Shown here piece after piece: positions 11,263 through 13,097 of a stretch of DNA of 33,242 nucleotides (within the stretch, counting starts at the first letter, position 1; each line of letters begins with the position of its first letter). Location of the stretch: contig CAIOMK010000038.1 in the NCBI GenBank assembly GCA_903859375.1, positions 1 to 33,242 on the forward strand, in the 5' to 3' direction. Made by a program: the position numbers and the translations under genes. Below the pieces are notes generated by a model. The model did no database searches. It had not been told where the DNA came from and saw only the letters and a list, made by a program, of their open reading frames with translations. Source of the stretch: Candidatus Moraniibacteriota bacterium (GTDB lineage: Bacteria; Patescibacteriota; Minisyncoccia; Moranbacterales; UBA1568).

Positions 11263-12333
11263 TCACCGGATCAACATCGAATCACCGAAGGAATAGAAGG
11301 CATATCCTTCGCGGATCGCCTCTTCGTAGAGGGAGACGAGATTCCGTTTGGAGCCCTTGTCCCGCAGAAACGCATCGACAAGGAGCATGAGCGAACTTTT
11401 GGGCAAATGAAAATTCGTCACGAGCATATCCGCCGATCGGAACCGGTGCGGAGGAAAAATGAAAATGTCGGTCTCGCCGGAATGCGGATGGAACACCGTG
11501 CCGTTTTCCGATGACGAAACGAGGACCGACTCGAGCGTGCGGAGTGCGGTCGTGCCGACGGCGACGATCGCATCCCCTTCACGTCGCGCCTGATTGAGAC
11601 GCTCCGAGGTCTCTTCGGAAACATCGATCCGTTCACGATGAAGTGTCTTTGTTACGAAATGTTCCGGACGAAGCGGGGCAAAGGTCCCCTGTCCGACATC
11701 GAGTCCCACTTTCACTGTATCGATTCCTTTTGCCACGAGTGTTGCGAGGACTCCGTCCGTGAAATGAAGTGAGGCGGTCGGTGCCGCGACCGATGCGCCG
11801 GTCCTCGCAAAAACGGTCTGATAGCGTTCCCTGAGTTCCGTCTCGTTGTGTTTCGATTCCTTGTCTTCCAGATAATGCGGAATCGGGGTCTCCCCATATG
11901 AATCAAGCAGCTCCGAAAGAAGATGATCCGATCGAAGTCGCACGAAGAAACGATTCTCATCCTGTGAAACGACCTCAAAATAGCTCCCGTCCGGAAAGAG
12001 GAGTTTCATTCCCGGGATGCATTTCCGATCCACAAGCACTGGAATGTTTCCCGATTCATCGGTCGACTCATTGGCGAGGACGAAGACCTCGATTTTTCCT
12101 CCGGTTTCCTTCACAAGCATGAGCCGGGCCGGCACGACCCGCGTCTCGTTCAAGACGACGAGCGACCGTTCTGGAAGAAAGACCGCCAGGTTCGAGAAGG
12201 TATCATGAACAACCGAGTCGGTCGCCGTATCATAGACGAACAGACGCGCCGCATCGCGCGGCTCGACGCCTTTCTTGCGTATCAGCTCCGGTGGGAGCCG
12301 GTAATCGTAGTCTTTCAAATTATCGATATCCAT
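11263..12333 (-). CDS. queA: S-adenosylmethionine:tRNA ribosyltransferase-isomerase
   Basis: DYDYRLPPELI, RSLVVLNETRVVPARL, VAAPTASLHFT, VTNFHLPKSSLMLLVDAF. Confidence 0.95.
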   Translation of the reverse strand: MDIDNLKDYDYRLPPELIRKKGVEPRDAARLFVYDTATDSVVHDTFSNLAVFLPERSLVVLNETRVVPARLMLVKETGGKIEVFVLANESTDESGNIPVLVDRKCIPGMKLLFPDGSYFEVVSQDENRFFVRLRSDHLLSELLDSYGETPIPHYLEDKESKHNETELRERYQTVFARTGASVAAPTASLHFTDGVLATLVAKGIDTVKVGLDVGQGTFAPLRPEHFVTKTLHRERIDVSEETSERLNQARREGDAIVAVGTTALRTLESVLVSSSENGTVFHPHSGETDIFIFPPHRFRSADMLVTNFHLPKSSLMLLVDAFLRDKGSKRNLVSLYEEAIREGYAFYSFGDSMLIR

Positions 12334-12466: not shown

Positions 12467-12495
12467 TTGACAATCGTCAAAAAAAGGAGTATATT
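12467..12495 (+). promoter_or_regulatory. Sigma70-type promoter for the structured RNA
   Basis: TTGACA (12467-12472), 17-bp spacer, TATATT (12490-12495). Confidence 0.8.
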
Positions 12496-12501
12496 AGCCT
12501 T

Positions 12502-12833
12502 AATTAGTTCTTTGGATCGTATTCAAAATCCCATGTCGAGTCAGAAATTTGGCAGTATGGATTGCATTTTTTTGTGAGGTGAGATTTTGAACGCGCTTTT
12601 GGTGGAGGGAAGCTTTTATTCACGTTCATTGTGCATGTGAAGACAAGGATGCTATCCTCCCGAAAGGAATGGGGGCCTTTCGGACAAGGGGAGATAGAGA
12701 CACTCGTTTCATGCTTTCCCTAGGTTTCACTCCACCTCGTTTATTGGGGTCTGGAATGACGTACTGCTCGGTCACGAAATCGTTTCGGATATCCCAAAAG
12801 TCCGGTTGCCTTAACAAGCGCCGGACTTTTTTT
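12502..12833 (+). ncRNA. Putative independent structured non-coding RNA, class not recognised
   Basis: Consensus promoter upstream and intrinsic terminator at the 3' end. Long-range complementarities: TTCAAAATC (12522-12530)/GATTTTGAA (12583-12591); GGTGGAG (12601-12607)/CTCCACC (12730-12736); CCGAAAGG (12660-12667)/CCTTTCGG (12676-12683); possible closing pairing TTTGGAT (12511-12517)/ATCCCAAA (12791-12798). Lies between two minus-strand genes. Confidence 0.7.
12796..12833 (+). terminator. Intrinsic terminator of the ncRNA
   Basis: AAAAGTCCGG...CCGGACTTTTTTT (stem 12796-12805/12821-12830). Confidence 0.85.
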
Positions 12834-12887
12834 ATTCACGGATTTATGTGATCGCATCGCGATGACGGACGCGACGGCCCGGGAACA

Positions 12888-13097
12888 CTATCCGTCGATT
12901 TTCTCGAACCGTTTCATTTGTTCCCCATCGACCTCGACGTATCCGGCGAACATATCGGCCGGTCGAACCCACAGATCGCGTTCACCATAGAGCGCACGAT
13001 ATACCACCAATTCCCCAAGCGTCTCGCTGTGCCTGGCGACGCCGAGCACTTCGTACACGTTCCCTTTGTAATGACGATATTTTCCGGGCTCGATCAT
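12888..13097 (-). CDS. DUF1653 domain protein
   Basis: PGKYRHYKGNVYEVLGVARHSETLGELVVYRALYGERDLWVRPADMF. Confidence 0.9.
   Translation of the reverse strand: MIEPGKYRHYKGNVYEVLGVARHSETLGELVVYRALYGERDLWVRPADMFAGYVEVDGEQMKRFEKIDG

Follow-up and report, generated by a model that had tools for sequence, protein, structure and literature searches.

A likely small RNA gene carrying a MITE insertion, divergent from queA in a Moranbacteria genome

The locus between queA and the DUF1653 gene

The window, that is, the whole stretch of 33,242 nucleotides that was analysed, corresponds to contig C38 in an assembly of 1.03 Mb (G000), and the candidate RNA gene occupies 12467-12833 of its plus strand, flanked by queA and a DUF1653 gene (Table 1). 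The two neighbours, both on the minus strand, are by their Pfam matches the genes that the sequence-only reading had named, and the closest named relatives of QueA are Candidatus Moranbacteria metagenome bins with 73% identity, which places the genome in the Patescibacteria. The promoter, the GC-rich terminator with its T-tract and the internal helices which that reading had named are all present in the sequence, the complement being imperfect for the pairing of GGGAAGC (12607-12613) with GCTTTCCC (12713-12720). The possible closure of the 5' and 3' ends by TTTGGAT/ATCCCAAA is probably no real feature, since the pairing has mismatches and runs across the boundary of an inserted element described below.

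Table 1. Features of the candidate RNA gene and its neighbours in the window
Feature	Position	Strand	Basis or counterpart
queA	11263-12333	minus	PF02547
Sigma-70-type promoter TTGACA-17-TATATT (-35, 12467-12472; -10, 12490-12495)	12467-12495	+	11/12 consensus
Probable 5' leader AATTAGTTCT	12502-12511	+	Start placed by spacing from the -10 box
Target duplication TTG, left copy	12512-12514	+	TTG-G...T-TTG flanking the element
Degenerate IS1031-type MITE, short interior (terminal inverted repeats, 12516-12533/12580-12597)	12515-12598	+	R1 match
Target duplication TTG, right copy	12599-12601	+	TTG-G...T-TTG flanking the element
RNA core, multibranch domain closed by GGTGGAG (12601-12607)/CTCCACC (12730-12736)	12601-12736	+	Orthologue L032:2620-2745
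Hairpin CCGAAAGG (12660-12667)-AATGGGGG-CCTTTCGG (12676-12683), G-rich loop conserved	12660-12683	+	Counterparts in L032 and L035
Hairpin GAGAC-ACTC-GTTTC	12697-12710	+	L032 GAAAC-TCCC-GTTTC, 5/5 pairs kept
3' hairpin domain	12742-12795	+	Minimum-energy fold prediction, unaligned with relatives
Intrinsic terminator AAAAGTCCGG...CCGGACTTTTTTT	12796-12833	+	Stem of -17.5 kcal/mol, then T7
DUF1653 gene	12888-13097	minus	PF07866

In a promoter scan of 308 kb of G000, 72 sites matching at least 10 of 12 consensus positions were obtained, most of them with a spacer of 17. One site of this quality, L094:3868, lies just 5' of the gene for RNase P RNA (RNA from 3939), which is a useful positive control for the scan, and another lies upstream of a tRNA. 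The word (C/T)AGTTCNTT that follows the -10 box is also seen in the orthologous locus L032 and in a second unit of the locus L035, both described below; as a general 5' leader motif behind promoters, AGTTCNTT showed no enrichment apparent by eye over the same 308 kb. The terminator was overlooked by a simple terminator scan owing to the loop rule of that scan. Moreover, protein coding seems unlikely at this locus, because the open reading frame 12669-12851 extends beyond the terminator, a ribosome-binding site was not seen, and the length of one gap relative to L032 is not divisible by three.

The predicted transcript of 334 nt is composite, with a MITE in its 5' third and the RNA proper. As a whole it folds at -116.3 kcal/mol (z = -4.1, equalled by none of 100 shuffles), and with the MITE and the terminator removed the fold still has z = -3.4; the predicted fold is multibranched, with purine-rich loops and bulges. 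The Rfam scan by which the sequence-only reading had proposed to check the candidate gave no match in the window, and a permissive scan of the region reached no family at E=0.1, the best match being Chlorobi-1 RNA (RF01696) at E=0.21. The likeness to Chlorobi-1 consists in a hairpin with the loop AAUGGGGG, whereas only 22 of 67 positions match and the score of 15.9 bits stands against a cut-off of 50, so that membership was rejected. The RNase P RNA gene is normally present once per genome. The divergent RNase P RNA that had been left as an alternative is excluded, since the window holds no match to the model and the gene of G000 lies elsewhere (C20:3939-4392, E=2.9e-29). A divergent 6S RNA, the other alternative, gave no match up to E=10, and the fold is multibranched and has no long duplex with a central bubble. 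Neither ARAGORN nor Rfam finds a tmRNA in the window, and the SRP RNA models give no match up to E=10.

A dispersed MITE family and its copy in the window

At the queA-side locus L034 of a congener (G004), an insert of 186 nt that is missing from the corresponding locus L033 of another (G001) has ends resembling window 12520-12593. The word ATCNCATGTCGAG is strongly over-represented against a reversed control in each of the genus's six genomes, and its exact matches are mostly complete hairpins of about 105-260 nt. An alignment of 16 such copies (A1), made without the window copy and with the variable tip of helix two excised, folds into a terminal helix of 18 bp and two further helices, of which the second, UGUCG/CGGCA, has a bulged A and the third is short. 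In this alignment 88.8% of pairs are kept and 19 of 38 are changed on both sides, while 0 of 500 shuffles were as good and slid controls scored far lower. The covariance model R1, built from these 16 copies with the window left out of the seed, finds copies in 17 of the 114 genomes of the order; several families of the order carry the element, which could be annotated with this model.

The copies begin with G and finish with C within 3-bp direct repeats, mostly TNA. The flanks are identical in 11 of 21 copies examined, the window included, against about 0.3 expected by arithmetic, and ten of these 11 are TNA, the window copy having TTG. An empty and a filled site can be compared directly, with CCT-TGA-GGTCC in L033 and CCT-TGA-[GAATC...GATTC]-TGA-GGTCC in L034. 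As to the source of transposition, contigs C23 and C65 of the congeneric genome G003 stop inside the C-terminus of an IS5-family transposase (PF01609 on both; the C65 fragment matches NF033580 with E=3e-15, which is below the whole-protein cut-off because the fragment has only 61 aa). The IS5 element of G003, of which one end only is visible, terminates in CTTA-GTATCTATCTCAAATCT, which matches the MITE ends exactly. Further copies of this end are located about 120-140 bp from where other G003 contigs stop, which fits a collapsed repeat. Since the IS5-type terminal repeat is found about 120-190 bp from the ends of many G003 contigs (C23, C30, C31, C49, C65, C74, C83, C84, C85), this IS probably exists in multiple copies and interrupts the assembly. 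Two further transposase loci, namely L203 in G002 and the complete gene L204 on C83 of G003, have no MITE terminal repeat adjacent in the stretches read.

ISLrh, an element of the IS1031 group, has the ends GAACCTGTCTAGTATCT and TNA targets (PMC12016507), and the end GAACCTGTCTACGATATC of our copy L181 is very close to them. With ends such as GAGCCTGTC, GAACCTGTC and GTATCTCTC, with 3-bp TNA target duplications, with its non-coding and dispersed copies, and with ends common to an IS5 transposase element of the same genus, the family is, as judged from its sequence, an IS1031-type (IS5 family) MITE. It differs from MITEs of this group in an interior that forms a conserved three-way fold with the motifs UGUCGAG/CCGGCAAG and is conserved in one orientation; MITEs do not usually have an interior conserved in this strand-specific way. 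In the longer variants L067, L073, L079 and L085 there is one more hairpin, CCAGAGGTTGGTCACCCTCTGG, and helix two has an additional arm, from which the interior appears to grow in modules. In L066 (G000:C25, 1173-1791), the 3' part of a tRNA, a small terminator hairpin and a spacer are tandemly repeated downstream of the tRNA gene, and in one repeat unit a MITE copy replaces the small hairpin; L070 (G002:C56) has a similar arrangement.

The window copy differs from the other members in being short, worn in its interior and flanked by TTG. R1 matches it at 12516-12597 on the plus strand with 28.3 bits (E=4.5e-5 for the window and 0.0014 for the whole genome), compared with 15.7 bits on the minus strand, and its terminal repeats are identical to those of a copy in the same genome (L183) at 14 of 18 and 16 of 18 positions. 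The identical TTG on both sides stands at the position of TNA in other copies, and is itself not TNA. The comparison thus shows the 84 nt at 12515-12598, as far as sequence can tell, to be an IS1031-type MITE that was inserted in the RNA gene and has since decayed. The R1 match, the 3-bp repeat and the absence from L032 together indicate that the first hairpin is not ancestral, and since the 5' third is a MITE, the first long-range helix, in which TTCAAAATC (12522-12530) pairs with GATTTTGAA (12583-12591), would be nothing else than transposon terminal inverted repeats. As the case shows, the helix that stands out most in a candidate RNA may consist of transposon terminal repeats.

The RNA proper and its orthologues

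For the RNA proper, one confident orthologue was found, together with one locus that has a hairpin alone. The former, L032 in the congener G002, lies adjacent to queA in the same orientation as the RNA of the window; it has the same TTGACA-17-TATATT promoter and a terminator of its own, and it lacks the MITE. When the MITE flanks of the window are joined, the two sequences align collinearly over 114 positions with a score of 33, which is reached by 0 of 200 shuffles (mean 21.5, maximum 30). Alignment A3 of the two retains every one of the 19 pairs in four shared helices, 4 of them with changes on both sides; slid controls keep 34-60% of pairs, and 36 of 500 shuffles did as well, a control which is weak with two sequences only. 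The loop (A/G)AUGGGGG is invariant (AAUGGGGG in the window and GAUGGGGG in L032) while the stem of its hairpin changes, the hairpin of L032 being CTCAGG-GGATGGGGGT-CCTGAG. In L035, from a third species (G005), a queA-side unit has the similar G5-loop hairpin GCGGCGTG-AATTGGGGGA-CACGCCGC. Elsewhere, TGGGGG is enclosed by a hairpin of 7 bp or more only twice in 1.39 million strand-bases, a count that is partly post hoc since the loop was noticed before counting.

The compensatory changes and the invariant loop between the window and L032 indicate a functional product, and the comparison shows the part from 12601 onward to be, by all appearance, the ancestral RNA common to this congener. The proposal of an independent structured RNA outside Rfam is supported in this way by synteny, promoter, helices and loop, and its conservation in a queA-side relative is likewise borne out by the kept pairs, with the weakness of the covariation control just given; what does not survive is a single RNA class of about 330 nt, as its 5' third is a copy of an IS5/IS1031-type MITE. 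The distribution is narrow: model R2, based on the two sequences, gave no further confident homologue in the 27 genomes of the family, a blastn search with the complete RNA against 96 related genomes returned short chance matches only, and the regions upstream of queA in the congeners have no overall similarity to the RNA by BLAST or nhmmer. In L033 and L034 the G5 hairpin is absent and the R2 match is weak or none.

A mobile insert in a candidate trans-acting RNA

Our analysis suggests that the locus is likely an undescribed, genus-restricted non-coding RNA gene carrying a MITE. Its anatomy, an RNA gene with a MITE insertion, we regard as highly probable, and the best explanation taken as a whole, namely a small RNA gene, a MITE insert and trans action, as reasonably probable. 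According to this explanation, one Moranbacteria genus has a small RNA gene oriented divergently from queA, and the predicted sigma-70-type promoter would give rise to a structured non-coding RNA, about 330 nt long, stopping at the predicted intrinsic terminator. The RNA would be transcribed and stable, and its exposed G-rich loop would pair in trans with C-rich stretches of mRNAs. The MITE would have entered after the leader and before the first RNA helix, duplicating TTG, and decayed thereafter. Since it sits between these two domains and folds independently, it need not disturb the core, and its hairpin may for the same reason have been tolerated. The role as a trans-acting pairing RNA is guessed from the anatomy and stays tentative, with chances slightly short of even.

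Such an RNA would be new, yet as a lineage-restricted structured candidate it is of a familiar general kind. It resembles the intergenic trans-acting sRNAs of bacteria in its predicted sigma-70-type promoter, intrinsic terminator and conserved hairpin loop, and in its length of about 250 nt once the insert is removed, whereas it belongs to no known family and is restricted to one genus within the genomes searched. A bolder form, in our view unlikely, is that the core represents an undescribed fast-evolving class of regulatory RNAs with an (A/G)AUGGGGG interaction loop, to which the MITE hairpin has been added as a new 5' domain, the core being revealed in that case by synteny and loop alone.

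Other explanations have to be weighed against the one favoured above. That the whole transcript 12500-12833 is one integrated undescribed class, with the 5' hairpin as a functional domain, might be suggested by the single promoter and terminator enclosing everything and by the better fold of the whole RNA than of its shuffles; nevertheless the 5' hairpin matches the model of a dispersed element, has 3-bp repeat flanks and is missing in L032, so that this reading is very improbable and already largely refuted. It is also conceivable, but improbable, that divergent transcription tunes queA in cis and the RNA product itself is inert. Units with their own promoter opposite queA are indeed found upstream of it in four other congeners (G001, G002, G004, G005) with little sequence common to most of them, and in L032 no more than about 15 bp separate the -35 box from the start of queA; the compensatory changes and the invariant loop speak against an inert product, and the RNA and queA do not overlap, which also counts against this reading.

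The multibranch fold with its purine-rich loops and bulges, as well as a promoter type that also precedes the RNase P RNA and a tRNA, would suit a protein-binding regulatory or housekeeping RNA, such as a 6S-like polymerase decoy or an RNA titrating a protein by GGA/GGGG loops. This is distinctly improbable given the null Rfam result and the lack of a 6S-like duplex in the predicted fold. Finally there may be no functional RNA at all, the promoter and the terminator being spurious signals around non-coding DNA with a MITE, and the small basis of R2 with its few homologues agrees with this; against it stand the synteny, the identical -10 box, the alignment shuffles and the complete retention of the pairs, and we give it a low probability.

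Patescibacteria have tiny genomes, and a limited literature search returned no paper on MITEs in Patescibacteria or on small RNAs of Patescibacteria or Moranbacteria. An RNA gene that is syntenic and keeps its loop may serve as a concrete candidate for study in this group, and the case illustrates how an RNA gene may acquire a preformed hairpin from a MITE.

Some minor observations concern the surroundings of queA in relatives. In L033, L034 and L035, one or more other promoter-terminator units of unrelated sequence lie opposite the queA strand, and in L034 one queA-side unit has received an independent MITE insertion. In G012 (C24:39995-41329; L049, L052-L054), queA is recovered as four tblastn pieces in one frame of 462 codons, as if in-frame insertions of about 57-111 nt were present.
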